This document shows positions 23,236 through 40,066 of a DNA stretch of 64,000 bases, piece by piece; positions within the stretch are counted from its first letter, which is position 1; each line of letters begins with the position of its first letter. The stretch is taken from NCBI GenBank assembly GCA_001664005.1, contig CP016093.1, positions 4,021,031 to 4,085,030 on the forward strand. The letters are read 5' to 3'. A program made the position numbers and the translations under genes. This DNA comes from Rhizobiales bacterium NRL2. GTDB lineage: Bacteria > Pseudomonadota > Alphaproteobacteria > Minwuiales > Minwuiaceae. The notes below the pieces were generated by a model that was not told where the DNA came from, made no database searches, and saw only the letters and a program-made list of their open reading frames with translations.

Positions 23236-23540
23236 CGCCTTCCGCTCCTGCCGGGAAGCCGACGCAGCCCGTCGGCTAAAAAATCCCGTTCCACCGTCAG
23301 CTCGCCGATCTTGGCGTGCAGGTCCTTGATCCGTGCCGCGTCCGCCTCCGGGTCGGACGTCGCACGACCGCGCTGGAACAGCTCCGAAGCACCCTCCAGC
23401 AGCGCCTTCTTCCATTGATGGATCATCGTCGGGTGGACACCGAACCTGCTCGCCAGTTCCGAGACCGTTTGTTCGCCCTTCAGGGCCTCCAGCGCCACCC
23501 GCGCCTTGAACTCGGGCTTGTGCTGCTTCCGTTTCGTCAT
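23232..23540 (-). CDS. IS3-family transposase OrfA
   Basis: A 102-residue DNA-binding protein starting [20 protein letters not shown]. The helix-turn-helix is [30 protein letters not shown] leucine-rich coiled region follows ([25 protein letters not shown]) and gives the multimerisation segment typical of OrfA. The slippery heptamer lies within the ERDFLADGL codons. Its stop overlaps the first codon of OrfB (ATGA). Alone OrfA usually acts as an inhibitor or targeting factor; after a -1 shift it becomes the N-terminus of the active OrfAB transposase. Confidence 0.9.
23277..23283 (-). other. Programmed -1 frameshift slippery heptamer TTTTTTA
   Basis: On the minus strand the reading GAT TTT TTA in OrfA can slip to TTT TTT A, entering the OrfB frame. 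The joined sequence runs from OrfA ...VERD to [11 protein letters not shown] and on through QERKAMIQ, continuing into OrfB with no stop. This is the standard IS3-family mechanism for making OrfAB. The heptamer position is read directly; slippage is inferred from the family. Confidence 0.7.
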
Positions 23541-23727
23541 CGCTGATCTCCTCGTCTCGAGGATCAGCAGACACCGCCACCGTAGCCTACGTCACTGTCC
23601 GATTTACGGGGCACAGCTCAGTCCAAAGAGCTACCGCTCACTTACGCTACTCTCCGCCTGCGATTGCCCAGGTCACCAGGAAAGATTAGGCTCGGCCCGT
23701 GAGGCAGGGGAACCATCCGGTGGCAAA

Positions 23728-25788
23728 ATGGCGATAAATGAGGATGCGCTAAACGCGTTTTTTCAGACGCATCCCAAGCAGAAGGCGGCTGCTGCTGCGC
23801 TGGACGAAGCGTTCGATGTAACATACGGCGCCTACCAGTTCGGACAGGCGTTCTGGCTTTGCAAGCCGAAACCATTTGCAGCTGAGAGGTTTGGACTTCA
23901 GCGCGAGGTTATCGCGGTGTATTCGCCGCATGCGCGGGCCGACGCACGGCTGCTGACGGCGCTTGAGAATATATCTCGGGCGCCAGAGTTTCGCCATCGG
24001 GTGGAGAACGTCGTCGCGCTGGTGATCTACGAAGGTGATGAGGAGCCAATCGAGGGCTTGGTGGCCCAGAGCAAAGAATGGGTGATTGTTCCCCTTTCGG
24101 CGGAGGAACTGGAAAACAGAGGCAAGCGGACCTTCCTCATACGATTGAAGATGGCCGCAACGATCGGCCGCTTCGATCTTTTCGGGATGTCTTCGCCGAT
24201 CAAGCATGACAAATACTTCTATGGGCGTGATGCGATTGTCCAGGAACTGGTGCAAAGGGCGCTAGTCCGTAAGGAGCAATCTGGGCTGTTCGGGCTACGC
24301 AAGACCGGAAAGACGTCCGTACTGTTTGCGATCCAGCGACGGCTTTCCGAAAAGGGTGCAATCGCTGAATATGTTGATTGTCAGAGTCCCGGTATTTACG
24401 GCAGTCGTTGGTGGGCAGTGCTAGAAGAACTCTCGCGGCGAATGCTAGAGTCTGCAGCGAAAAGCGGGTGTCCAGCTCCTTCAGAACTCTCGTTCGATAC
24501 GGCTGGCGCGGCGAACTCGTTCATTCGAGCGGTGAAGTGGATCCAAGATAGATCCACGGTAGGGCAGATCGTGCTCCTCCTAGATGAGGTCGAGTTCATT
24601 ACGCCGGGCATCGCCAACCATCTCGGCCAGCATTGGGACGGCGACCACCTGCCGCTGTGGCAGACGATCAGGTCTGCATCGCAGGAGACGAAGGGGTTTC
24701 TTACCTTCTGCGTAGCCGGGGTCAACCCGTCAAGCGTGGAGCAGTCGCACTTCAATCAGGTTCCGAATCCAATCTTCCAGTTGGCGGTTCCATTCTATCT
24801 CGATCCGCTGACCCGTCCCAGCGTGCGAGAGATGGTTCGGTCCATCGCGAAGTATTCCGGTGCTGTGCTCGAGGAGAACTGCTTCGATCTACTGACCTCA
24901 GAATACGGTGGGCATCCCTATTTGATCCGGCTGGCATGCAGCGAGGTGTTACGTTCACTTGACGAATTGCCGGTGGACAAAAAGGTGAAGATTTCGAAGT
25001 CTAGATTCGATGCGGTTCAGCACAATATTGCCATCCGACTAGCTCAGCCAATCAAGGACATCATGCTGTCGTTGGTGTGGTGGTATCCAGACGAATATGA
25101 GCTGCTGTGCCTTTTGGCGGAGGGCGACACGGCCTTCGTTCAAGATTTTCTAGCTTCGGAACCTGAGAAGGCCTCTCGGTTCGCGCGCTACGGCTTGCTG
25201 GAAGCTGACAACGGCTCTTTCGCGATCAAGGAACTCCGAACTTTCCTCGTGAAATCTGGACTGGAATATAAGAACGCGATTTCACCATTTACCCGTGGCG
25301 ATCTCCCCTTAGAATACTTGCCAGAAGAGCCGAATATCAACGACCTCGCCGCGCTTTTTGAGCGCAGGACAGAGGTCGAATATGCGCTGCGGAAGTTGCT
25401 GATAACTGTTCTGGAGTACCGTTTCGCGTTCGACGACGCAAAGGTAGCAAATGCGATCACCGGAGCGTTGCCGAAGCATAATGGAAACAGAGCTCAGCTC
25501 TTTGTCGGCAGATTACCAAAGGATGCCGTCAGTGAGCTTTACATGAGTGATATGAAGCCTGTTTTTGTCAAGAACTGGGATAATTTTTCTGCCTATTTTG
25601 GGCAAAAACCTGAAAGATTTGAGATGAATCTCGACACGATTAATATCGCTCGACGGTATGAGGCGCATACAAAGCCGGTCAGCTCAAAAGATCTTGAGGC
25701 ATTTCAGAACAGCTATTTGTGGCTAAAAATACGGCTTCAAAAGATACCAGGGCTAATTCCGGAGGCTGCGGTGGCCAAGCCTTCCTAG
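23728..25788 (+). CDS. STAND-like AAA ATPase with N-terminal REase-like domain
   Basis: A 686-residue protein. Residues 1-160 form an alpha/beta domain (REVIAVYSPHARADARLLTA, VENVVALVIYEGDEEP) that may be a restriction-endonuclease-like or sensor fold. YFYGRDAIVQELVQRALVRK leads into Walker A FGLRKTGKTSVLF at about 188-200 and Walker B IVLLLDEVEFIT at about 281-292, followed by an arginine-rich sensor region (LTRPSVREMVRSIAKYSG) and a winged-helix stretch. This is the layout of nSTAND NTPases. The ATG at 23728 is chosen because the frame upstream runs back through the IS3 end. The C-terminus ends exactly where IS5-like sequence starts, so it may be truncated. A defence role is plausible but unproven. 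Confidence 0.7.
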   Translation: MAINEDALNAFFQTHPKQKAAAAALDEAFDVTYGAYQFGQAFWLCKPKPFAAERFGLQREVIAVYSPHARADARLLTALENISRAPEFRHRVENVVALVIYEGDEEPIEGLVAQSKEWVIVPLSAEELENRGKRTFLIRLKMAATIGRFDLFGMSSPIKHDKYFYGRDAIVQELVQRALVRKEQSGLFGLRKTGKTSVLFAIQRRLSEKGAIAEYVDCQSPGIYGSRWWAVLEELSRRMLESAAKSGCPAPSELSFDTAGAANSFIRAVKWIQDRSTVGQIVLLLDEVEFITPGIANHLGQHWDGDHLPLWQTIRSASQETKGFLTFCVAGVNPSSVEQSHFNQVPNPIFQLAVPFYLDPLTRPSVREMVRSIAKYSGAVLEENCFDLLTSEYGGHPYLIRLACSEVLRSLDELPVDKKVKISKSRFDAVQHNIAIRLAQPIKDIMLSLVWWYPDEYELLCLLAEGDTAFVQDFLASEPEKASRFARYGLLEADNGSFAIKELRTFLVKSGLEYKNAISPFTRGDLPLEYLPEEPNINDLAALFERRTEVEYALRKLLITVLEYRFAFDDAKVANAITGALPKHNGNRAQLFVGRLPKDAVSELYMSDMKPVFVKNWDNFSAYFGQKPERFEMNLDTINIARRYEAHTKPVSSKDLEAFQNSYLWLKIRLQKIPGLIPEAAVAKPS

Positions 25789-27485: not shown

Positions 27486-28205
27486 TCAGCTAATATCGCA
27501 CCCATCCGGCCGCGCCCAAGACTCGGTTGGCTTGGCACCCTTGTTGACTGCATCGAACGTCAGCCCCGTCACCGTCTCGATCGTCTCAACCGCCTCCAGC
27601 CACCCATCGAGGGAACTGCGCGGCGCTGCCCCGTTCGAGACGATCCACGCGTTCGCCTCGCGGTTATCCGCCCGGATCACGACCTTCCAGAAAGCAGAGG
27701 GGGTCTGGATACCATGCGTACCGACAAAGCGGTCATCCGCGAAGTTCGCGCCCCAGATCGGCCCGCCCCACACCTCGAGTGTCACCAGCTCCCGCAGGCA
27801 TTCGATAATGTCTTCCGTCTCCCGCCAGGCTCCTCGGTTCATGGATGCCGTCTGCGGTAGGAGGTTCGTCCAGTAATTCGTCTGCCGGATGGCGGTCTCG
27901 GAGCCATCCATGTGATTGGCGGGCACCTGGTGGCCAACGTCATAACGCGGGCCGCCGTCCGGAATGGTCGACTGGAATGTTTCCGTGCTCAGGGACTGGC
28001 AGTGCGCCGGGATCTCGGGATCGATCTCATAATCCGATTCCCGCTCTTCGTTCCCAGTGTCCGCCGCCGCCATATAGTGAAACAGCACGGCACCCCGCCG
28101 GCCGCAGTCCACCCAGACCGTGAAACCGTCATAGTCGATTTGCATGACCTGAGCAGGAACGACCTGAGGCAAGAGAAGTCCGACGCACAGCACCAGCGCT
28201 CGCAT
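27486..28205 (-). CDS. Secreted DNA/RNA non-specific endonuclease (NUC family)
   Basis: A 239-residue protein with a signal peptide (MRALVLCVGLLLPQVVPAQ) and a beta-beta-alpha-metal nuclease core. YDVGHQVPANHMDGS is the DRGH-type active site, with Val for Arg but the catalytic His kept. TNYWTNLLPQTASMNRGAWRETED supplies the metal-binding Asn and the helix. These enzymes degrade single- and double-stranded nucleic acid outside the cytoplasm. The start at 28205 is picked because the signal peptide begins there; an in-frame ATG at 28265 would add 20 hydrophilic residues. It stands alone between convergent and divergent neighbours. Its use may be nutrient scavenging or degrading foreign DNA. Confidence 0.88.
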   Translation of the reverse strand: MRALVLCVGLLLPQVVPAQVMQIDYDGFTVWVDCGRRGAVLFHYMAAADTGNEERESDYEIDPEIPAHCQSLSTETFQSTIPDGGPRYDVGHQVPANHMDGSETAIRQTNYWTNLLPQTASMNRGAWRETEDIIECLRELVTLEVWGGPIWGANFADDRFVGTHGIQTPSAFWKVVIRADNREANAWIVSNGAAPRSSLDGWLEAVETIETVTGLTFDAVNKGAKPTESWARPDGCDIS

Positions 28206-28418
28206 TCCCAACCCTCTGCAGTTCTCCGTTACCGTCATCGTGAAGCGCGACGCTATGGCAGACAAGCCCCCAGGCCATGCATGTTCTCATGGCGTTTGTT
28301 CGGCCCGACCCTTGTTTCCCCGGCATCAGCGTCTTCACCTACTGCGACAACTGTCGTCACGGCCGCCCAAAAAATCTCTCAGCGTCGCGCTCATTGATTG
28401 TTTATCTGCGACCAATTC

Positions 28419-30383
28419 TCAATCTAGAGAGGTGGCGCCGCAATCTATCAGTGCGGACACAACAGCGTCATAGGCCTCGGGTGGTCGCGTCTCATCTGCG
28501 GCGCTGCCACGCGGGACGAACAGAACCATCCCTTGCCGCGCACGCGTGAGCAGCACCCGATACGCGTTCTTAAGATAGAGCCGCTTCTCATCGGACCGGA
28601 CCTGCTGCCAGCGGCTGCCAACGAACCGAAAAGATCGCCAGGCGCCATCCACATATCGGAGATCCAAATCCCAACAAACGGCAGTCCAATCCAGCTCTAA
28701 TCCCTGGATATCGAACTCGGTGGCCACCTCTTCGAGCGCAAATGATGACCGGACATCTTCTCTCGGGTTTAAGAACCAGTTGGGCGGGTCGATTTTGACG
28801 CGCGGGTTGATGCCTTCCGATCTCAATCGGTAGCCACCTGACGAGGCGACCAGGCCAACTCGTTCAGTGCCACGCGCCTGGGCTCGGAGCCATTCTCGAG
28901 CGCGATTAAGATCCCGGGTGACATGGATCGGGTATCGCGCGCGGAAGCTACCAAATACCTCTCGAGCCTGGACGATCCGGTTCTCAAGCAGGTGTCCGAC
29001 AAAATCCGAAACGGTCTCTGCTCTGAAGGATCGCATCGATACGCCGAGGTGGAGCGCGGCTGAGGTTTCCACCTCAGGACGCTCGAGAGCGTTCTCCGCC
29101 GCTTGGGTCCAAATGTAGTCGGGGTCTTGAAGGCGATCGGAAACGAATATCCGCCAGTCTGGGAAGCTGTGCTGGAGTGCTGTCACCCATTCAGACAGAC
29201 CCGCCTCGCCCGTGTTGATCTCTTGGCCACCGCCGACCAGGCATATGATCACGCACCAATCTGCATGCCGATCCATCACGCTGATCAAAAACTCAGGCTC
29301 GGACATCTCAAAATCAGCGAGTCCGCGCTTCTCCTTCATGAACCGGCTTGCCTGATCCTTCGTCCAAGCTCGTTGTGCCTCGTCGAAAATAACGATGCGC
29401 TCGTGCGGGGGATTGGGGTCTCTAATCGCCTCATCTCGGAAATGATGAATATTCTGGATGAAGCTTGCGACGCGTCGGCGCGCGTCACCGATACGGAGGC
29501 TTTCTCGCGCGGACTGATCTCGAGCCAAAGCCTCCCGCAAAATCGAAACCAAAGGCCCATTGCCTGACAAAAAGACGGCGTGCTCGTCATCGGCCTCATC
29601 AGCACGCTGTGTCGCGATATTGAGTCCGGCCAACGTCTTGCCGGCGCCTGGGACACCGGTGACAAAGCAGATAGCGTGAAGACGCTCCGTTTGTGCCTGT
29701 CGAACGACATCATTGATGAAATCAGTTGTCGCGGCGAGGTTCTTTGCACCCGCGTCCGAGCGAGAGATTTCTTGCACATCGTGGTCACGATAGAGCGCTT
29801 GGGCCGCTTCGATGATTGTGGGCGTCGGCCGGTAGCCCGAGGAGAGCCAGGCTTCAGGGTCCAGATTCAAGTTCGGTGTCGCGTCCAGGACCGATCGGAT
29901 AGCGTCCGCCAGACCAAAACGCCCGACTTTGATGGGCTCGATGACATCGTCCGAAGCCAAATGAATGTTTGGTTCCTGAGCAGAAGCTGCATCGGTCGCC
30001 ACAAGAATGGGGGCGATAACGAGGCCATGGCTGCCGAGATGAAAGTTCTTGAGGTCCAACGCGTAGTCGTGGACCTGTTCAAGCGCCGATCGATCGAAGG
30101 TCTCGGATCCAACTTTGAACTCGATGACAAAGACGATTCCGCCAACGAGCAAGACAGTGTCTGCTCGCTTGCCCATTCTCGGGATGGCAAACTCGAGAAA
30201 CACCGTCGCGTCAGGCAGGGTCGCTATTTCTCCGCGTAGGTAATGGAGTTGCACAAGCCAGGCATTGCGTTGAGCAAGGTCAAGCGCGAAGCCATGTGCA
30301 GCAGCGAGTTGGCCCAATACGGCGTCATCAGACGCAGACGTGAACTCAGCCACATTTGATTGGAAATAGGCCTGGCGAAGCAT
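28419..30383 (-). CDS. DUF2075-type helicase with N-terminal PD-(D/E)XK-like domain
   Basis: A 654-residue protein. Residues 40-130 contain a nuclease-like core: RADTVLLVGGIVFVIEFKVG gives Asp75 and E88-F-K90. A P-loop follows at about 241-251 (VTGVPGAGKTLAGLN), then Walker B IVIFDEAQRAW and, near the end, YRVLLTRARQGMVLFVPRG, a superfamily-1 motif VI-like segment. This is the DUF2075 pattern of uncharacterised DNA/RNA helicases. The ATG at 30383 is chosen because the first 23 residues of a longer reading are unlike coding sequence; that choice is uncertain. Neighbours are IS elements and other nuclease proteins. Anti-phage function is plausible and unproven. Confidence 0.82.
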   Translation of the reverse strand: MLRQAYFQSNVAEFTSASDDAVLGQLAAAHGFALDLAQRNAWLVQLHYLRGEIATLPDATVFLEFAIPRMGKRADTVLLVGGIVFVIEFKVGSETFDRSALEQVHDYALDLKNFHLGSHGLVIAPILVATDAASAQEPNIHLASDDVIEPIKVGRFGLADAIRSVLDATPNLNLDPEAWLSSGYRPTPTIIEAAQALYRDHDVQEISRSDAGAKNLAATTDFINDVVRQAQTERLHAICFVTGVPGAGKTLAGLNIATQRADEADDEHAVFLSGNGPLVSILREALARDQSARESLRIGDARRRVASFIQNIHHFRDEAIRDPNPPHERIVIFDEAQRAWTKDQASRFMKEKRGLADFEMSEPEFLISVMDRHADWCVIICLVGGGQEINTGEAGLSEWVTALQHSFPDWRIFVSDRLQDPDYIWTQAAENALERPEVETSAALHLGVSMRSFRAETVSDFVGHLLENRIVQAREVFGSFRARYPIHVTRDLNRAREWLRAQARGTERVGLVASSGGYRLRSEGINPRVKIDPPNWFLNPREDVRSSFALEEVATEFDIQGLELDWTAVCWDLDLRYVDGAWRSFRFVGSRWQQVRSDEKRLYLKNAYRVLLTRARQGMVLFVPRGSAADETRPPEAYDAVVSALIDCGATSLD

Positions 30384-30537
30384 GGAGCGTCTGGCTCTCA
30401 ATCGAAAATGAGGATTCGAACGCTGGCATCCCGAAAGGCGTTGCCGCAACAACTTGGTTGCCGATGGCCTGTGGTCTGATCCCCACCGTGTCCGCGCCTA
30501 TGAGTTATAGCTGTTGAAGGCTTGGTCCTCTCCCGAC

Positions 30538-31345: not shown

Positions 31346-31439
31346 ACCGTCGGGGCTTCCTCCTGAGCTCCTATGTCAATAAGGTAGCTGCAAAGAGGTG
31401 TGTTACATCTCGAACGCTCTAATTTCGAAGGCAATTTGC

Positions 31440-32117
31440 ATGGACGAATTTGACCAACAGCCATTCAGCGATGCTGAGTTCGCGGAAAACCCGGAACAAC
31501 GTTGCCCGGTAATACTTCTTCTGGACACGTCCTATTCCATGAGCGGCGCGCCTATTTCAGAATTGAACGAAGGGCTGGCCACATTGCGGCAAGAACTTAT
31601 GAACGATGCCATGGCCGCGAAGCGCGTGGAATTGGCGATGGTCACTTTCGGGCCGGTAGAGGTTAAATCCGACTTCGCTACAGCGGACCATTTCTATCCC
31701 GAAACGCTTGTGGCGGGCAACGCAACCCCGATGGGGGAAGCGATTGTGACCGGGCTTGACATGCTCCGCCAACGCAAGGACCGCTACCGCGAGAATGGCG
31801 TCAAGTATTACCGGCCGTGGGTGTTCCTCATTACCGATGGTGCTCCGACTGACAATTGGCAGGAGGCAAAGCAGCGCGTTCATCAAGGCGAAGAACGCAA
31901 GGAGTTCATGTTCTATGCCGTAGGTGTGGAACAGGCGGACATGAATGTGCTTGGCCAGATCGCCAAGCGTCAGCCGCTCAAGTTAAAAGGACTGGCTTTC
32001 AAGGAACTGTTCCAGTGGCTTTCCAGTTCACTTAGCGCCGTTTCGCAGTCCAATCCCGGCGATGCCGTTCCGCTCGAAAATCCGACCGCCCCAGATGGCT
32101 GGGCTATAGCAGGGTGA
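31440..32117 (+). CDS. vWA-domain protein, TerY-like
   Basis: A 225-residue von Willebrand factor A domain protein. The MIDAS metal site is [12 protein letters not shown] (DxSxS at residues 29-33), with the Thr in NATPMGEAI and the Asp in [10 protein letters not shown]. Length and sequence match TerY-like proteins that partner a PP2C phosphatase and a kinase. The ATG at 31440 is preferred over an in-frame ATG at 31398. Its stop lies 4 bases before the PP2C start, and the kinase follows 2 bases after that, making a tight three-gene operon. In such triads the vWA protein is thought to hold a complex together in a metal- and phosphorylation-dependent way; this is family knowledge, not shown here. 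Confidence 0.88.
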
Positions 32118-32121
32118 CACT

Positions 32122-32868
32122 GTGGCTTGGCGGTGGGCGTCCGCGTCCGTAATCGGTACGTCTCACATTCAAAGCGGCGATAGGTTGCAGGACGCCTACG
32201 CCGTTGCTGAATTGGGTGATGGGGGCATTCTCGCTGTTGTTTCGGACGGTGCAGGTACCGCCAAATTCGGCGCATATGGTGCTTGGCTCACGTGCCGTTT
32301 CCTGTCGGTTCGATTCCGCGGATGGTTTCGCGCTTATCCTGACCTGCCGCCAGACGAAGAACTGACGTGCTGGATAGATGAACTACGGGACCGAATATCG
32401 GCAACAGCTATCCGGCGGCAATCTACACCCCGCCAATTCGCCGCGACGCTGGCGGCAATCATTGTCACGCCGGATGAAGCCGCAACGCTGCACATCGGGG
32501 ATAGCGCCGTTGTGGGCCGGAAAGGCACCGAATGGGATGTACTGTGCTGGCCCGAGAATGGCGAGTATGCGTCCAGCACCTACTTTGTCACCGATGATCC
32601 CGAACCGCGCCTGAACATCACCCGCCACCCGAGCGGACACGATGCATTCGCGCTATTTTCCGATGGTGTTGGCGATCTGGCGTTGTCACATCTGGAGCAG
32701 GCCGCGCACCCCCGCTTCTTCGACCCCATGTTCCGCCCGGTTGATGCCGCATCGGGCGAGGGACGGCTTGTCGATCTATCGGAAAAGCTGGCCACATACC
32801 TTGCCGGACCATCGGTCTGCGAACGCACCGACGATGACAAGACACTCATTCTCATTTCCGGGGGCTGA
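32122..32868 (+). CDS. PP2C-family serine/threonine phosphatase
   Basis: A 248-residue PP2C-type phosphatase starting with GTG at 32122. The metal-binding residues are visible in SGDRLQDAYAV, VVSDGAGTAKFGAYGA, ALFSDGVGDLAL and ERTDDDKTLILIS. The catalytic core is complete without extra domains or membrane helices. It would remove phosphate groups put on by the kinase encoded 2 bases downstream, or counteract its action on the vWA partner. The gene position between TerY-like and kinase genes is the order seen in TerY-P triads. Translational coupling is likely given the 4- and 2-base gaps. Confidence 0.9.
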   Translation: MAWRWASASVIGTSHIQSGDRLQDAYAVAELGDGGILAVVSDGAGTAKFGAYGAWLTCRFLSVRFRGWFRAYPDLPPDEELTCWIDELRDRISATAIRRQSTPRQFAATLAAIIVTPDEAATLHIGDSAVVGRKGTEWDVLCWPENGEYASSTYFVTDDPEPRLNITRHPSGHDAFALFSDGVGDLALSHLEQAAHPRFFDPMFRPVDAASGEGRLVDLSEKLATYLAGPSVCERTDDDKTLILISGG

Positions 32869-32870
32869 CC

Positions 32871-35042
32871 GTGCAAGAAGTCGTCATCGGAAAGGATCGG
32901 GTTTCAGTTGCCGAATTAATCGGCAAGGGTGGCGAAGGCGAAGTCTACGCGATCAAAGGCCGCTCCGGGCAGGCCGTCAAAATCTACAACACCGGCTTGC
33001 GTGCCAATCGAGAAGACAAGATTCGGGTGATGGTAGGCGAGGGACTCGCCGTCAAGACCGACCTTGTTGCCTACCCCAGCGAGGTCGTGACTGACCGTCG
33101 CGGCAACTTTCTTGGGTTCGTCATGCGGCTTGTGTCGGACTATCGCCCACTGCATGAACTATACAGCCCGAAGTCTCGCCAGCGCCATTTCCCAAAGTCT
33201 GATTGTCGGTTCATCGTCCATGCTGCGCTGAACGTCGCCCGCGCTGTTGGGAGAGTGCACCAGACGGGATGTGTAATCGGCGATCTGAACCATTCCGGCG
33301 TGCTTGTGGCTCAAGATGGAACCGTTGCCCTAATCGACGCAGATAGCTTCCAGTTCAGCTTGAACGGCAGGTCATATCCTTGTGTCGTCGGCGTTCCTGA
33401 CTTCACGCCTCCCGAGCTACACGGGAAGAACCTCGCGTCCGTTCAGCGCACCATAGAGCACGATAACTTCGGGCTGGCAGTTGCGATCTTCCACCTGCTG
33501 TTCATGGGCCGTCATCCCTATGCCGGGCGCTACAAGGGACCGGACATTTCCATAGGGGAGGCAATTGCCCAAAATCGTTTTGCCTTCTCGCTAACTCGGC
33601 AAGCGGCAACACAGACAACTCCGCCACCCGGTGCACCGACACTCGACATATTCCCGGATTCTATTTCCCGCGCATTCGAAAACGCATTCGGACTGACACC
33701 AGGCGCGCGTCCGAGTGCGCTGGACTGGATTCAAGCCCTGAACACTCTCGAAGGCTCACTGAACCGCTGTAGCAAGGTCAAGACGCACTATTACCCCAGC
33801 GCCGCCGGTAGTTGTGTCTGGTGTAAACTGGCCGGCATCAGCGGCTTTGACATGTTCCCGGACCTGACCGCCGTGGAACCGAATATCCTGACCGATGCGC
33901 CCGGCACGGAACAGGCAATCCGCGAGATTCTGGCATTCCGGTTCCCAACGGTCGCGGACTTGCTTCCGGCTGCGTCTGCGCCGCGCAGTGCCAGCAATGC
34001 ACTGCGCGAAGCAAGGAGCGGAAAGCGAGGGCGGGCACTCATGGGCTTGTTGATGATGGGCGGTGCGGTAGCGGGTTTCATCTACGCCGCCCCGGCGTGG
34101 TTTGTGTGGATCGGGCTGGCAATCTGGGGGTGGTTCACATTCTCCAACCATGAAGTTGAAACTGGCCCGTTTCAACAGGCCTTCAAGGATGCCGATGAAC
34201 GCGTGCAGCGCGAGTTGAATGCCTTTGTTCAGCGCAACAACATGACTGAGGTTGTGAAGGTGCGCGCCGATTTGGACGCCACAATCGCCGCCTATAAGGG
34301 CCATGACGATGCACTCGCTCGCGAACTCATGGTGATGAAGTCCAACCGGGAGGCGCGCCAGCGACATGCCTATCTTGACCGTTTTTCCGTCCGGCGCTCG
34401 AATATCTCAGGTATCGGCCCGGCGAAAACGGCAACGCTGATTTCCTTTGGAATCGAGACCGCCGCCGATGTGAATCGTTCCGCTGTTCTGCGGGTGCCGG
34501 GGTTCGGTGACGTGATGACCGGCAGGCTGGTGGCATGGCGGCGCGGACATGAATCCCGTTTCAAGTATGAACGGACGCCAAACTCTCAGGACGTTGCCGA
34601 TGAAAGGGCATTACGTGGGCGGTTCGCGGTAGAAAAGGCGAAGCTGGAATCCACGATCCGCAACGGGCTGGGCACCCTGAGAAATGCCAAGGCCCGGTTG
34701 GACGCATTGCCCGCCAAGGCCCGAGGCGATAGGGCGCTGACCGACGCGCTTGCCACTCGCGCCCAAGCTGAACAAGATCTGCGAGAGTTGGGAGCAACGG
34801 TTCCGGCCTCTACCGTGGCGCTGACGGTGACGCCACCACAGCGACCAGCACCACAATCAGCTGGAACACCCCGCGTCACCACACCCACGCCGCCGCATGT
34901 GACCGCCACAACCGGCACGTCAACCTGCCCGCGTTGTGGAGCCCCAATGGTGCGCAGAACGGCGCGCCGTGGCCGGAATGTAGGCGGGCAATTCTGGGGC
35001 TGCTCGCGGTATCCTCGGTGCAAAGGAACGCGAAACCTCTAG
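32871..35042 (+). CDS. Protein kinase with TM helices, helix-hairpin-helix and topoisomerase-type zinc ribbon
   Basis: A 723-residue protein starting with GTG. Residues 10-300 are a eukaryote-like kinase: glycine loop IGKGGEGEVY, Lys37 in AVKIY, catalytic VIGDLNHSGVL with Asp138, DAD in place of DFG at 156-158, and TPPEL for APE. Two membrane segments lie at about 388-424. A coiled region follows to about 500, then a helix-hairpin-helix (ISGIGPAKTATLISFGIE and VLRVPGFGDVMTGRLVAW) at about 511-565. The C-terminus from about 684 is a zinc ribbon (TCPRCGAPMVRR, FWGCSRYPRCKG) like that of topoisomerase I. HhH and ribbon normally bind nucleic acid. It ends the vWA-PP2C-kinase operon; an HNH gene converges from the other side. 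Confidence 0.88.
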   Translation: MQEVVIGKDRVSVAELIGKGGEGEVYAIKGRSGQAVKIYNTGLRANREDKIRVMVGEGLAVKTDLVAYPSEVVTDRRGNFLGFVMRLVSDYRPLHELYSPKSRQRHFPKSDCRFIVHAALNVARAVGRVHQTGCVIGDLNHSGVLVAQDGTVALIDADSFQFSLNGRSYPCVVGVPDFTPPELHGKNLASVQRTIEHDNFGLAVAIFHLLFMGRHPYAGRYKGPDISIGEAIAQNRFAFSLTRQAATQTTPPPGAPTLDIFPDSISRAFENAFGLTPGARPSALDWIQALNTLEGSLNRCSKVKTHYYPSAAGSCVWCKLAGISGFDMFPDLTAVEPNILTDAPGTEQAIREILAFRFPTVADLLPAASAPRSASNALREARSGKRGRALMGLLMMGGAVAGFIYAAPAWFVWIGLAIWGWFTFSNHEVETGPFQQAFKDADERVQRELNAFVQRNNMTEVVKVRADLDATIAAYKGHDDALARELMVMKSNREARQRHAYLDRFSVRRSNISGIGPAKTATLISFGIETAADVNRSAVLRVPGFGDVMTGRLVAWRRGHESRFKYERTPNSQDVADERALRGRFAVEKAKLESTIRNGLGTLRNAKARLDALPAKARGDRALTDALATRAQAEQDLRELGATVPASTVALTVTPPQRPAPQSAGTPRVTTPTPPHVTATTGTSTCPRCGAPMVRRTARRGRNVGGQFWGCSRYPRCKGTRNL

Positions 35043-35075
35043 TTCGCTCCATAGACTTGAACGGTTGCACACATT

Positions 35076-36284
35076 TTAGAGCTGCCGTTTTCGGAAGTTT
35101 TCGAAATGAAAGCCGAGGCTCTTGGGGGAGACTTCATCGGAAACGGTCTTGCCGCGAAGGCTCTGGTAATCCGGAGATTCAATGTGGTCTGAAACCTCAA
35201 TTTTCTTGGTCTCGGGGTTGATCGAAATCAGGTGCGCATCAAAGAGTTTGTGAATGTCACTTCTCAATAGAAGACCATTCTCGGGCCTGTCACGGTCGGC
35301 AAACCGTTCCGCATAGGGGATGATGTGGGCGGCTTCCAGAACCGAAAGCTCGCTCGTGCCGGTGATCGCGCAGCAGTTTGGGCGCTTGCTCAAAAGGGCC
35401 TGCCGGAACGCGCTCTGGTATCGACGCAGGACCATTTGGCGAAGGGCGGTGGCGTCTTCGATCTTCTCGAGGTTCAGGGGTTCGTGCGGGTCCGGGTTCT
35501 GGTTCTCATATTCCGCGATCTTGTGGGCCTTCTCCCGAACGGCGGACAAAAGCGAGTCCACGTCGCTATCCGAGATCGGCCAAACCCGGCTGTGGCGGCT
35601 CGCTCCGACACTGGAAATGAAAGTCCCGTCATACTTGTGCGCCGCCAAGAGTTCCTTCCCAACGGGGCGCGCGAAGAACACGGCGTCAAGCACCTGGGCG
35701 CGACGATCCGGCTGCATGGGGCCGAACTCGACCACGGCCGTCAAGCCTCGCCCGCGCTCGCCGTCCTTCCCCTGTTCATGCAGCCATACGAGGCCCCGGA
35801 AGCCCTTGGACAGAATCTCGTCGGCATAGCTGTTCTCTTTGCGAAGCTCGGGCAGGGCTGCGTCCCGACCGACCCAGCTTTCGGCTGCGGACCGAACACC
35901 GTGCTCTCCGAATAGGTCAATTGCGCTGGATTTGACGAAGAACTGAATATCCTGCCGCTGGAACTGATTCACCTTGGTCGCACCAAGCTTCAACCGCTCC
36001 TGTGCGGCGGCGATCACGTCAGGGGTGAACCGATCCGGGTATTTGAGCACCAAGGCTTCATAGCTCTGATCCGGGTCAATCTCCTCGAACCCGGCGGAGG
36101 CGTTCAAGACCCGGCTGGAAATCATCTCTTCCGGGCCTTTCGCCCTTATGTCCCGGGGTTCATACCCGAGGCCCGCGCGTTGGCCTTGGCTTCGCTTGAC
36201 CTCTTGCCAATGATCGTAGACTCGGGCGAGATCGTTTTCCAACGGATCGGCGCTGCCTCTGAGGGCTTCCATGACTTCAGACAT
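35076..36284 (-). CDS. HNH endonuclease
   Basis: A 402-residue protein with a C-terminal HNH nuclease: NCCAITGTSELSVLEAAHII, then RPENGLLLRSDIHKLFDAHL, giving the His-Asn-His set at about residues 318-345. A single Cys pair (NCCAITG) may hold a structural metal. The N-terminal 280 residues hold an unrecognised domain (FQRQDIQFFVKSSAIDLFGE, GFRGLVWLHEQGKDGERGRG) that might recognise modified DNA or a partner; that is speculation. The gene converges on the kinase gene with a 33-base gap. A McrA-like restriction role is possible. Its link to the vWA-PP2C-kinase operon rests on proximity only. Confidence 0.85.
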   Translation of the reverse strand: MSEVMEALRGSADPLENDLARVYDHWQEVKRSQGQRAGLGYEPRDIRAKGPEEMISSRVLNASAGFEEIDPDQSYEALVLKYPDRFTPDVIAAAQERLKLGATKVNQFQRQDIQFFVKSSAIDLFGEHGVRSAAESWVGRDAALPELRKENSYADEILSKGFRGLVWLHEQGKDGERGRGLTAVVEFGPMQPDRRAQVLDAVFFARPVGKELLAAHKYDGTFISSVGASRHSRVWPISDSDVDSLLSAVREKAHKIAEYENQNPDPHEPLNLEKIEDATALRQMVLRRYQSAFRQALLSKRPNCCAITGTSELSVLEAAHIIPYAERFADRDRPENGLLLRSDIHKLFDAHLISINPETKKIEVSDHIESPDYQSLRGKTVSDEVSPKSLGFHFENFRKRQL

Positions 36285-36750: not shown

Positions 36751-37293
36751 ATGACCAAGCTCAATGACAAGCATATCGCCATCCTCGCCAACGCGGCAAA
36801 CCGTACTGACGGCTGCGTGCTGCCGCTGCCGGAAGACATGCGACTGCAGGGCGGCGCACTCACCGCCGTGCTTCGGTCTCTGGAGCGCCGCGGCCTTGTG
36901 GAGCGCTCACCGGACGACGTCTGGACCATCACCGAGGCCGGTCGTGCAGCGGTCCCGGGAACGGTCGCGACCGACGCCGACGAGAGCGAAGAAGAGAACA
37001 CGGCGCCGCAAGTCGCGACCGCGGACCCGAATGCAGGTGAGAACCATGACGCCCCGGCGCCGCTCTTCCGCCCGGGCACGCGGCAGGCGCAGGTCCTCGA
37101 CCTCCTGCAGCGGGAAGAGGGCGCCGACATCGACGAGATGATGCAGCTCACCGGCTGGCAGCCGCACAGCGTCCGGGCGGTGCTGACGGGCTTCCGCAAA
37201 CGCGGCGTGGACGTGACCCGCACCAAGGAAGGCAACGGCGTCAGCGTCTATCGGGCTCAGCTGCCGGCCAGCGCGGACGCGATGGCTGACTGA
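36751..37293 (+). CDS. DUF3489 domain protein
   Basis: A 180-residue protein with two winged-helix-like halves. The first (NDKHIAILANAANRTDGCVLP, LERRGLVERSPDDVWTITEAG) looks like a MarR-type fold, and the second (TRQAQVLDLLQREEGADIDE, then QLTGWQPHSVRAVLTGFRKR) is the DUF3489 domain. An acidic linker (ADESEEEN) separates them. The function is unknown, but DUF3489 genes are commonly found with DUF2924 and a large serine recombinase, as here. It may act as an accessory or control factor of the recombinase; that is inference. It is the first gene of the three-gene module (13-base gap to DUF2924). Confidence 0.85.
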   Translation: MTKLNDKHIAILANAANRTDGCVLPLPEDMRLQGGALTAVLRSLERRGLVERSPDDVWTITEAGRAAVPGTVATDADESEEENTAPQVATADPNAGENHDAPAPLFRPGTRQAQVLDLLQREEGADIDEMMQLTGWQPHSVRAVLTGFRKRGVDVTRTKEGNGVSVYRAQLPASADAMAD

Positions 37294-37306: not shown

Positions 37307-37996
37307 ATGCGAAGGGACAACTCCATCCGCGCGGGCGGCAGCGGCAACGTTGCCGCTGCCGCCCGCGACACGATTCCGAGGCCGTCCCCTTCCGATGCCG
37401 CAGCCGGCGCGGCGTCATCGGTCGCTGCGCAAACGCCAGCAGGAACCTTTGACGCCCGCGTCCGGGCCATGTCCCGCGACGAGCTTGCCGTGCTCTGGCA
37501 GCGGCGCTGGCGGCGCCCGCCGCCGAAGGGTCTCAGCCGCCGGCTGCTGGAATACAACGCCGCATGGCTGCTGCAGGCTGAAGCGCAGGGCGGGCTGACG
37601 GCCGCAACCCAACGCCGTCTCGACACGCTGGCGAGCGCCAGCCAGAGCAACGGCGATGGCGCAGCGGAAGGCCGACGACACCACGGCAATGATGACCGCA
37701 GGACGCCGCGCCGCGCCCTCCGTCCCGGCAGCCGGCTGGTCCGCCAGTGGCAGGGCCGCAGCCATGTCGTCGAAGTCATCGTTGGCGGGTTCGCCTATAG
37801 GGGGCGGTCATACACCTCCCTCACCGCCATCGCTTTTGAGATCACAGGCGCGCGCTGGTCCGGCCCGCGATTCTTCGGACTGAATGCCCCTGCACCGGAG
37901 AGGAAGTCCGTCAGGAACGGAGAAAAGCGGCACTCAGACGGCAAGGGAGGTCTCGCCGCTGCGATGCACGGGGGGCAGGGCGAGAGCGATGGCTGA
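37307..37996 (+). CDS. DUF2924 domain protein
   Basis: A 229-residue basic protein. The DUF2924 signature is LRPGSRLVRQWQGRSHVVEV followed by GFAYRGRSYTSLTAIAFEIT and ARWSGPRFFGL. An N-terminal helical half (MSRDELAVLWQRRWRRPPPK, LSRRLLEYNAAWLLQAEAQG) is also typical. The high Arg content suggests nucleic-acid contact. Its stop at 37994-37996 overlaps the recombinase start at 37989. Molecular role unknown; a recombination directionality or assembly function has not been shown. Neighbours on both sides match the usual context. Confidence 0.88.
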   Translation: MRRDNSIRAGGSGNVAAAARDTIPRPSPSDAAAGAASSVAAQTPAGTFDARVRAMSRDELAVLWQRRWRRPPPKGLSRRLLEYNAAWLLQAEAQGGLTAATQRRLDTLASASQSNGDGAAEGRRHHGNDDRRTPRRALRPGSRLVRQWQGRSHVVEVIVGGFAYRGRSYTSLTAIAFEITGARWSGPRFFGLNAPAPERKSVRNGEKRHSDGKGGLAAAMHGGQGESDG

Positions 37997-39794
37997 GCGC
38001 GGACGGCGGGAGGGCAATGGGTCGACGGCTCGGGGCGGGAAGCTCGACCGTTCATCGCTCGGCGGTTCAACGCGTACCGTTGGAGGCAGCCGTTCTGTCC
38101 GCTGCGCCATCTACACGAGGAAGTCCACCGAGGAGGGGCTGGAGCAGGCCTTCAACTCGCTGGGTGCTCAGCAGGAAGCCTGCGCCGCCTATATCCGCAG
38201 CCAGCAGCAAGAGGGCTGGAAGGAACTGCCCGCCCGCTACGACGATGGCGGCTTCTCCGGCGGTTCGATGGAACGGCCGGCACTGGCGGTGCTGCTGGAC
38301 GACATCCGGGCCGGCCGCATCGACACGGTCGTCGTCTACAAGGTCGACCGGTTGACCCGCTCGCTCGCCGACTTCGCCAGGATCGTCGAGCTGTTCGAGA
38401 ACCACGGCGTCTCCTTCGTTTCGGTCACCCAGCAGTTCAACACCACCACCTCCATGGGACGGCTGACGCTGAACGTGCTGCTCTCCTTCGCCCAGTTCGA
38501 GCGGGAGGTCACCGCCGAGCGTATTCGCGACAAGATCGCCGCCTCCAAAGCCAAGGGCATGTGGATGGGCGGCGCCGTGCCGATCGGCTACCGGGTCGAG
38601 GACCGCAAACTGGTCATCGACCCGGACGCAGCGGCGACCGTCCGGCGCATCTTCGGTCACTATCTGGAACTCGGGTCGGTCAGGGACGTGAAGGCCGCCT
38701 GCGACCGGGACGGCATCGCGACCGCCACCCGGACCAGCCGCTCGGGCCGCACGACCGGCGGCGGGAGCTTCAGTCGCGGCCATCTCTACTGGCTGCTCAG
38801 GAACCCGATCTACATCGGACGCGTGAAGCATCGCGGCCAGACATTCGATGGCGAGCACGAGCCGATCGTCGACATGGCCAAGTGGGAGGCGGTGCAGGCG
38901 ATGCTCGACCGCCATGCGAAGCACAGACAGGCGGCGGTCAATCTCCCCTCCCCGTCTCACCTGTTGAAAGGCCGGCTGTTCGACGAGGCCGGCGAGCCGC
39001 TCTATGCCACCCAGGCCAGCAAGCAGGGCCAGCGCTACTTCTACTACACCTCCAAGCATCTGGTGACGCGCAGGGGAACCAACGGCGCCGGCTGGAGATT
39101 GCCCGCGCCGGCATTCGACAAGCTGATTATCGACCAGCTCGAGGCCCTGCTGCGCGACCCGCTGCGGGTGATGGACCTACTGGTATCCGAACATGACGAC
39201 AGCATCGAAGTGACACGAGCTATCGATGCGGCCAACCGTGCAGCCGATGTCCTGACCGGCACGGACGGCAATGCGCGTCGGCGGATGCTCGATGCCCTGC
39301 TCGAACGCGTCGAGCTCCGGGAGAGCGGCATCGCCGTCCGTCTTCGACCTTCCGCCGTCGATTGCGGGTCTGACCCCGAAGGCCCGAGGGCCGGAGTCTC
39401 GGGCGATGGCGAATGGACCGAAGCCGTGGCCGTCGAGCTGCCGGTCCAGCTGACGCGACGCGCCAATGGCAGCCGCATCGTCCTAGCCGACCGCGAACAG
39501 GAAACCGGCGGGCCCGACCCGAAGCTCGTTCAACTGGTCGCGGACGCGCATCGCTGGAACCGGATGCTGGCGGAAGGCGATGTCATCTCACTGCGGGAGC
39601 TTGCCAAGCACGAACGGCTCGATACCAGTGACGTCAGCAGGGCGCTCAACCTCGCGTACCTGGCGCCCGACATCATCGAAGCCATTCTCGATGGCCGTCA
39701 GCCCGCAGGTCTGACGGCGAGGAAGCTCAAGCGGATGAACGAACTGCCGCTCGACTGGACCGCGCAACGCAAGATGCTTGGCTTCCCGGCCTGA
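37989..39794 (+). CDS. Large serine recombinase (resolvase/invertase-type site-specific recombinase)
   Basis: A 601-residue large serine recombinase. The catalytic domain (about residues 35-190) begins RCAIYTRKSTEEGLEQAFNS with the nucleophile Ser and includes VVVYKVDRLTRSLADFARIV. SFAQFEREVTAERIRDKIAA carries the conserved Arg-rich helix. A recombinase domain (PIGYRVEDRKLVIDPDAAA, RNPIYIGRVKHRGQTFDGEH) follows, then a zinc-ribbon-like region without obvious Cys pairs and a C-terminal helical part. The start at 37989 overlaps the DUF2924 stop. It would integrate and excise a mobile element at a short att core. It sits 197 bases from the 3' end of tRNA-Val. Confidence 0.93.
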   Translation: MAERGRREGNGSTARGGKLDRSSLGGSTRTVGGSRSVRCAIYTRKSTEEGLEQAFNSLGAQQEACAAYIRSQQQEGWKELPARYDDGGFSGGSMERPALAVLLDDIRAGRIDTVVVYKVDRLTRSLADFARIVELFENHGVSFVSVTQQFNTTTSMGRLTLNVLLSFAQFEREVTAERIRDKIAASKAKGMWMGGAVPIGYRVEDRKLVIDPDAAATVRRIFGHYLELGSVRDVKAACDRDGIATATRTSRSGRTTGGGSFSRGHLYWLLRNPIYIGRVKHRGQTFDGEHEPIVDMAKWEAVQAMLDRHAKHRQAAVNLPSPSHLLKGRLFDEAGEPLYATQASKQGQRYFYYTSKHLVTRRGTNGAGWRLPAPAFDKLIIDQLEALLRDPLRVMDLLVSEHDDSIEVTRAIDAANRAADVLTGTDGNARRRMLDALLERVELRESGIAVRLRPSAVDCGSDPEGPRAGVSGDGEWTEAVAVELPVQLTRRANGSRIVLADREQETGGPDPKLVQLVADAHRWNRMLAEGDVISLRELAKHERLDTSDVSRALNLAYLAPDIIEAILDGRQPAGLTARKLKRMNELPLDWTAQRKMLGFPA

Positions 39795-39990
39795 CCATAT
39801 TGTTGCTCACCGCTGCCCGATGGTTTGGACCCCGAAATCGGCCAGTAGAGACACTCCCGCATTCAGCCGGAAATCGTCTCCCCTTCGGCGTCTCCCGGGA
39901 ATCCAATCGCCGCCACGAGGCCCGCAAAGCCGGCAAAGCCGCGGGTCTCCGCCGGGACGCAGTGTGGACATGGGTTCGCGGAAGACCGGA

Positions 39991-40066
39991 TGGTGGGCGA
40001 TACTGGACTTGAACCAGTGACCCCTGCGATGTGAACACAGTGCTCTACCAGCTGAGCTAATCGCCC
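39991..40066 (-). tRNA. tRNA-Val (anticodon CAC)
   Basis: The minus strand gives a complete 76-base cloverleaf: acceptor stem GGGCGAT paired with ATCGCCC, D arm AGCTCAGCTGGTAGAGC, anticodon arm CTGTG-TTCACAT-CGCAG with anticodon CAC, a T arm containing GGTTCAAGTCC, and an encoded CCA end at 39991-39993. CAC reads GUG codons for valine. The 3' end faces the recombinase gene. No second copy of the tRNA 3' end was found by eye within the window. Confidence 0.95.

Follow-up and report, generated by a model that had tools for sequence, protein, structure and literature searches.

A vWA-PP2C-kinase cassette of the YegL-PphC-YegI/TerY-P family with a variable kinase tail on a probable mobile island of Rhizobiales bacterium NRL2

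Overall organization of the triad

The window, a 64,000-nucleotide stretch of the Rhizobiales bacterium NRL2 genome (contig CP016093.1, forward-strand positions 4,021,031 to 4,085,030), contains a triad of genes for a von Willebrand factor A (vWA) protein, a PP2C phosphatase and a membrane kinase. The first gene (31440–32117, + strand) encodes a TerY/YegL-like vWA protein of 225 amino acids (aa) with an intact metal ion-dependent adhesion site (MIDAS; Pfam VWA, 1.5e-9). The second (32122–32868, + strand) encodes a PphC-like PP2C-type Ser/Thr phosphatase of 248 aa (Pfam PP2C_2, 1.1e-44), and the third (32871–35042, + strand) encodes a YegI-type membrane Ser/Thr kinase of 723 aa (Pfam Pkinase, 1.9e-8) that carries a helix-hairpin-helix (HhH) and zinc-ribbon tail. 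The triad is homologous to the YegL, PphC and YegI proteins of Escherichia coli, is maintained as an intact cassette in its relatives and has exchanged its kinase tail among them. Judged by its sequence, it is with high confidence a fresh member of the YegL-PphC-YegI/TerY-P family and not a new system.

The three genes are separated by only 4 bases (vWA-PP2C) and 2 bases (PP2C-kinase). A gene for an HNH_2 nuclease (35076–36284, − strand; Pfam HNH_2, 6e-17), judged to be a neighbour outside the system, converges on the kinase gene after 33 bases. The open reading frames (ORFs) and their spacing match the coordinates given in an earlier note on this DNA, and Pfam backs the identity of each gene. 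The vWA ORF has two possible starts, GTG at 31398 and ATG at 31440. The start at 31440 is supported because the DNA homology to six close relatives begins at window positions 31433–31446.

The vWA and PP2C proteins

The vWA protein is 59% identical to E. coli YegL across 217 aa. Its MIDAS residues D29, S31, S33, T96 and D133 are unchanged across 14 aligned vWA proteins including that of the window, which bears out the intact site described earlier. The phosphatase exhibits 37% identity to E. coli PphC across 253 aa and is complete as claimed, with the DGAG, SDGVGD and DDKT motifs all found. Motif patterns fit 80 of 82 vWA matches and 74 of 83 PP2C matches. Of the three proteins, vWA shows the highest conservation; in locus L015, for example, the identities are 94% for vWA, 85% for PP2C and 81% for the kinase. 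A search of the vWA protein against PDB sequences gave no match at 0.01.

Structure of the kinase and its tail

The kinase is 32% identical to E. coli YegI across 639 aa. In the full-length model (mean pLDDT of 88.6), a kinase lobe is followed by a helical hairpin (residues 376–425), a helical stalk, the HhH region and the ribbon. Fold searches with the whole kinase return 'protein kinase' only. Immediately after the kinase lobe, a C-x5-H-x8-C-x-W-C motif (C300-H306-C315-C318; 33768–33824, + strand) was identified by alignment. The cysteine, histidine and tryptophan residues of this motif are invariant in 42 aligned kinases, the window's counted, and the C-H-C-C set also occurs in E. coli YegI. 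The set is a possible zinc or other metal site.

The hairpin is predicted to be transmembrane (33996–34145, + strand) from hydropathy, which peaks at residues 388–422, and from the model, in which helices 376–405 and 407–425 pair with each other. Because the two helices form a hairpin, the kinase and the tail are probably located on the same, cytoplasmic side. The HhH region (residues 505–561; 34383–34553, + strand) is defined by the tail model, with a Pfam HHH_5 match at 0.097, and the tail terminates in a topoisomerase-type C4 zinc ribbon (residues 686–717; 34926–35021, + strand; Pfam Zn_ribbon_Top1, 2.6e-10), the exchangeable end module of the protein. The two membrane helices, the HhH and the zinc ribbon reported earlier are thus supported jointly by hydropathy, models and Pfam, the HhH being weak by sequence.

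A tail-only AlphaFold2 model (mean pLDDT of 86.6) has its nearest PDB folds in the HhH regions of Rad51/RadA, Y-family polymerases and DisA. Foldseek returned nothing for the tail model at E 0.001, with the NEIL3 Zf-GRF among its weak hits, and a tail profile gave six weak matches to the PDB (0.06–0.08), including ribosomal eL32 in the HhH part and TOP3A in the ribbon. No OB-fold was found in the kinase tail by Pfam, and the tail model consists of helices and only three strands, all in the ribbon. The HhH-type fold neighbours and the zinc ribbon make it plausible that the tail touches nucleic acid, as the earlier note had proposed.

Conservation of the triad as a cassette

Relatives were compared at 84 loci, of which 80 were taken from the 423 kinase relatives found in genome contigs and four came from viral contigs. 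The counts are not all independent, since L019/L020, L040/L041, L049/L050, L073/L074, L077/L078 and L034/L095 are near-duplicates. In 82 of the 84 loci, the vWA, PP2C and kinase genes are all complete and keep a common order and strand, and the two exceptions (L036 and L058) are cut by contig starts. Such retention of order and strand indicates that the arrangement is not due to chance. No fourth conserved gene was seen: the commonest family among 1123 neighbour ORFs, a tyrosine integrase assigned by eye, is near only six loci.

The limits of DNA homology coincide with those of the coding unit. In the six close relatives, homology starts at the vWA start and runs to the kinase stop (35040) in L015 and L016, and it ends inside the kinase tail in L018, L022, L028 and L030. 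Conserved DNA beyond the coding unit was not found in any of the six, and the HNH gene is never reached. What is transferred thus appears to be the triad and nothing more.

Exchange of the kinase tail

A kinase tree was built by a quick method from the first 620 residues of 81 rows (80 loci and the window). Eighteen of 98 loci had been removed by hand as duplicates, fragments or non-kinase matches (L002, L005–L011, L031, L036, L041, L050, L060, L068, L073, L090, L092 and L095). By pattern match and by eye, 50 of the 81 tails contain a zinc ribbon (ZnR), 20 lack a recognised further domain and the remainder carry other tails. The L016 ribbon lies in another reading frame and was scored as ZnR from that reading. 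Parsimony on the tree gives nine tail changes.

The clearest exchange is observed in L018, from Desulforhopalus. Up to a proline-threonine linker, the L018 kinase (L018:10001–12349) has 86% identity to the window kinase; beyond the linker, a WYL domain (Pfam, 27.8 bits against a cut-off of 21.8) takes the place of the ribbon. The DNA homology of L018 ends at window position 34903, immediately before the ribbon. The L072 kinase has a Pfam PG_binding_1 domain on a longer tail, and E. coli YegI stops short of the proline-rich linker and lacks a zinc ribbon. Tails were also labelled by eye as 'PGB' in L075, L080, L081, L082 and L094 and as 'SWIM' in L089; Pfam found neither PG_binding in L080 nor SWIM in L089, and the other four PGB rows carry the label by eye only.

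The ribbon-to-WYL swap at the linker and the nine tail changes suggest that the tail is an exchangeable sensor behind a constant kinase. WYL domains and zinc ribbons are known as nucleic-acid binders. As the swap occurs in an otherwise 86% identical kinase, comparing the two kinases would test directly whether the tail decides what is sensed. No account of a YegI-type triad with a WYL tail was found in the open-licence literature, and absence from print is not claimed.

The L027 and L028 kinases (Chlorobiaceae) are 81–82% identical to the window kinase and end before the ribbon, and in both a similar stretch is readable past the stop.

The adjacent HNH gene

The earlier note had modelled the kinase as a nucleic-acid sensor that frees the neighbouring HNH nuclease via the vWA protein. 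The convergent spacing of 33 bases in the window and a likewise convergent HNH_2 gene in L018 agree with this model, but convergent genes do not make one operon, and a homologue of the window HNH protein is present in 0 of the 84 triad loci. The homology to relatives, moreover, ends at or before the kinase stop. Downstream sequence of at least 1 kb is available in 67 loci and of at least 2 kb in 61. Any HNH_2 gene within 2 kb downstream, as detected with a home-made profile of 21 domains that includes the window's, occurs in one of these 61 loci, L018. The L018 gene lies 522 bases past the end of kinase homology and ∼160 bases past the actual kinase stop, and its protein has no similarity to the window HNH protein at E 1e-3. 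Together with L062, where an HNH_2 gene is located 6.7 kb from the triad, L018 accounts for the two HNH_2 cases in 84 loci. HNH_2 proteins are also common, occurring somewhere in the genome in 22 of the 45 triad-bearing genomes that were searched (45 of 80).

The window HNH protein has a distribution of its own. At 1e-20, its own genome is the only one of 385 in the class to contain it. Among 732 matching plasmid records, just one, from Rhizobium gallicum (76%), reaches at least 80% coverage. This relative (plasmid L140:10001–11208) is annotated as two genes and faces ABC-three-component/DUF3732 genes, and a gene table that may be incomplete lists 15 features less than 10 kb from it, with no triad among them. 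No relatives of the HNH protein were found among viral sequences, and its only PDB match is one HNH enzyme, through the HNH part alone (0.0019).

The HNH gene is thus not conserved beside the triad in related genomes, and on conservation it is rejected as a triad partner and unsupported as an output. Release of the nuclease by the kinase is a highly improbable explanation of the locus, and these comparisons identify the adjacent gene as most likely a chance neighbour. A nuclease gene that converges at a distance of 33 bases may be a mere chance neighbour within an island.

Island, mobility and distribution

The triad sits on a probable mobile island. A 59-bp repeat (39938–39996, no strand) touches the 3′ end of a tRNA-Val (CAC) gene (39991–40066, − strand; ARAGORN and Rfam) and is a putative island end. 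The second copy, a direct repeat with 57 of 59 positions identical, is located 58.4 kb upstream, outside the window (G000:C1:4002520–4002578). A serine recombinase gene (37884–39794, + strand; Pfam Resolvase and Recombinase) lies at the probable island edge, preceded by a DUF3489 gene (36751–37293) and a DUF2924 gene (37307–37996). The position of the direct repeats, at the edge of a tRNA-Val gene and next to a serine recombinase, suggests that they are the island ends. GC content is 0.57–0.60 at 28–36 kb; to the right of 36 kb most of the sequence, with the recombinase genes, is at 0.65–0.70. The tRNA was the only Rfam match at gathering cut-offs.

The smallest well-supported clade with the window kinase (SH-aLRT of 99) has 12 rows from four phyla: five of Pseudomonadota, three of Thermodesulfobacteriota, two of Chlorobiota, one of Verrucomicrobiota and the window itself. 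Two of the clade rows outside Pseudomonadota are isolates (L018 and L028), and the other four of these six (L023, L027, L030 and L032) have metagenome titles. At 1e-60, the kinase is found in six of the 398 genomes of a phylum sample, its own counted. Integrases and resolvases lie near relatives, and some relatives are on conjugative plasmids. Phage records contain four weak kinase matches among 50,697.

This distribution bears on a housekeeping or envelope-stress role, in which the triad would be a regulatory Ser/Thr phosphorylation module of the ordinary sort with no defence task of its own, islands would be merely its carriers, and E. coli YegI-PphC may be another example. Such a role accords with the near-core status of yegI in E. 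coli (5360 of 5426 genomes), with the PG_binding_1 domain on the longer L072 tail, which resembles periplasmic sensors, and with the left part of the window's island, which looks largely catabolic and transport-related (FAA hydrolase, SDR and TRAP components by Pfam, with further ORFs by eye). The window's branch, however, is patchy (none of the 6 other genomes in the genus has the kinase), it crosses phyla at 68–86% identity, and its surroundings include integrases, resolvases and plasmid genes. An ordinary regulatory role is regarded as possible but rather unlikely for the window triad. Since yegI is near-core and other relatives are borne by islands and plasmids, core and mobile forms both exist in the wider family.

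Defence context

Three further genes of the same probable island were compared with known families. An SLFN-g3 helicase gene (28419–30452, − strand) matches the PADLOC candidate PDC-S41 at 3e-284. A STAND-like NTPase gene (23506–25788, + strand) matches below Pfam cut-offs, and a DNA/RNA non-specific endonuclease gene is located at 27486–28265 (− strand).

PADLOC matches were counted among the neighbours of 21 triad loci (123 proteins, drawn from 156 proteins of 25 loci under a residue limit, with those above 1500 aa excluded) and in 20 control regions (116 of 119 proteins). The control regions were hand-placed in triad-bearing genomes (18 handles, two of which are one genome), mostly on HNH_2-bearing contigs, which may raise their defence content. 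At 1e-25, 62 models match triad neighbours versus 10 for controls, counts that are inflated because many models match one protein. In terms of protein types at this threshold, approximately six (GajA, E1-E2, RTasSbcB, REase_I, MTase_II and a 2TM effector) are observed near triads among the 25 models listed of 62, versus five in controls (LmuA, LmuB, MkoA, MkoC and ZorB). At 1e-70, five types near triads compare with two in controls (LmuA and LmuB). Mobility families separate the two sets more clearly; those near triads include Phage_integrase (5), Resolvase (2), Gp3-like (2) and YqaJ (2). None of the four is among the 25 listed of 151 control families, where single control hits may be hidden.

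Several neighbours recur within smaller groups of loci. In the Pseudomonas loci L048, L049 and L050, a gene for a protein of ∼1205 aa and one for a protein of 440 aa lie directly upstream of the triad; IcmF-related models match one protein of the neighbour set, by eye that of the L048 gene. In the Sphingomonadaceae loci L040, L041, L141 and L142, the upstream cluster consists of an AbiE toxin gene, an exonuclease and an SMC-like ATPase, and on the two plasmids of this group it continues with a 396-aa protein and a HerA-type ATPase. His-Xaa-Ser genes (hxsA, hxsB or hxsC matches) are located less than ∼5 kb from the triad in L057, L059, L072, L073/L074, L091 and L143. In the kinase tree these loci belong to four separate branches, one with both L057 and L074 and one each for L059, L072 and L091 (L143 is unplaced), and none of the 20 control regions contains such genes.

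Proposed mechanism

The triad is interpreted, with a probability of roughly 0.5, as a self-contained, horizontally moving phospho-switch that is tuned by nucleic acid, has PP2C as its off-switch and probably serves stress response or defence. By binding DNA or some other nucleic acid close to the membrane, the kinase tail would tune kinase activity. The kinase would phosphorylate itself and targets, perhaps including the vWA protein, which may be a metal-dependent adaptor or substrate, and PP2C would keep the system off or reset it. Because no conserved effector gene was seen, the output is likely phosphorylation itself, which could act on host or invader proteins by analogy with KKP (PfkA, PfkB and PfpC). 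PMC11341870 describes KKP, which occurs in Pf and other prophages, as a tripartite toxin-antitoxin made up of kinases and a phosphatase. This precedent for a kinase as toxin and a PP2C as antitoxin is counted in favour of the phospho-switch.

The same precedent fits an addiction module, in which the kinase toxin and PP2C antitoxin would stabilise the island or plasmid rather than fight phages. The two-base gene spacing and the occurrence on conjugative plasmids point the same way, but the vWA protein, most conserved of the three, is needless for a bare kinase/phosphatase pair, and E. coli has a near-core chromosomal version. Addiction as the sole function is considered improbable.

A narrower version of the phospho-switch is offered tentatively and is itself unlikely. 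The ZnR branch would be a membrane-tethered DNA-sensing kinase that reads nucleic acid at the inner membrane, such as entering DNA, and uses phosphorylation to shut down either the cell or the invader; PP2C would be the antitoxin and vWA a metal-dependent adaptor, and no nuclease would be needed. The exchangeable sensing modules would then be the zinc ribbon or WYL and, in one kinase, a SWIM-like finger seen by eye.

Several observations weigh against the phospho-switch as a nucleic-acid-tuned, mobile stress or defence system. In the window kinase, the HHH_5 match is under the Pfam cut-off; it is stronger in E. coli YegI (9.3e-4) and L072 (1.3e-4), yet both are under the curated cut-off. The fold similarity of the tail model is modest, with a best Z of 7.1. 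As the ribbon is missing in many relatives and one tail is peptidoglycan-binding, nucleic-acid sensing need not hold family-wide. Part of the phylum spread could be mis-binning because four clade rows are metagenome assemblies, and the near-core yegI fits a housekeeping role better than patchy defence. In PADLOC, whose library was unchecked for TerY-P content, the vWA and PP2C proteins are unmatched and the kinase is matched by its kinase domain only. Enrichment of defence genes around the triad is not established.

Comparison with known systems

PD-T4-6, by its PADLOC name, is a single-gene kinase defence. The window kinase has only weak, generic kinase-domain similarity to it (3.5e-7), and the architectures differ.

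KKP (PMC11341870) and the window triad are both cassettes of a Ser/Thr kinase and a PF13672 phosphatase on mobile elements. According to the same paper, KKP is triggered by a phage protein that inhibits the phosphatase, and CSD and FHA are fused to its two kinases; the term 'vWA' is absent from the text of that paper. The window triad, in contrast, has one kinase with an HhH and a zinc ribbon, plus the vWA protein. Pfam gave no CSD or FHA match in the window kinase at E 0.1.

The E. coli YegL-PphC(YegK)-YegI proteins are the same three in the same order. At corresponding positions, E. coli YegI and the window kinase are both predicted to contain an HhH and a hydrophobic segment. The E. coli K-12 cluster is interrupted by yegJ and yegI is near-core and chromosomal, whereas the window triad is uninterrupted and lies on a probable island. 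Pfam found no Pkinase match in E. coli YegI. PMC13232886 reports YegI to be a membrane-bound autophosphorylating kinase that is dephosphorylated by PphC, and a title in the reference list of that paper, 'lacking conserved motifs', agrees with the missing Pkinase match.

A link to TerD and tellurite was rejected on 0 TerD matches in the window's genome. McrB/McrC-type and CnuH/CnuE (CoCoNuT) genes were not found among 19 window proteins scanned with Pfam.

TerY-P is reported to be active against T7-like phages (PMC7699616). CoCoNuT-linked TerY-P (type II/III-A) comprises a TerY-like vWA protein, a PP2C and a kinase with a C-terminal zinc ribbon, and the stand-alone antiphage TerY-P of Gao et al. 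2020 has an OB-fold instead of the ribbon, both according to PMC11090510. The window kinase differs from the Gao et al. form in having an HhH and a zinc ribbon after a membrane hairpin. With a vWA protein that contains a MIDAS, a PP2C and a kinase that ends in a C-terminal zinc ribbon, the window triad fits the TerY-P definition, and the TerY-P-like identity first proposed for it stands.

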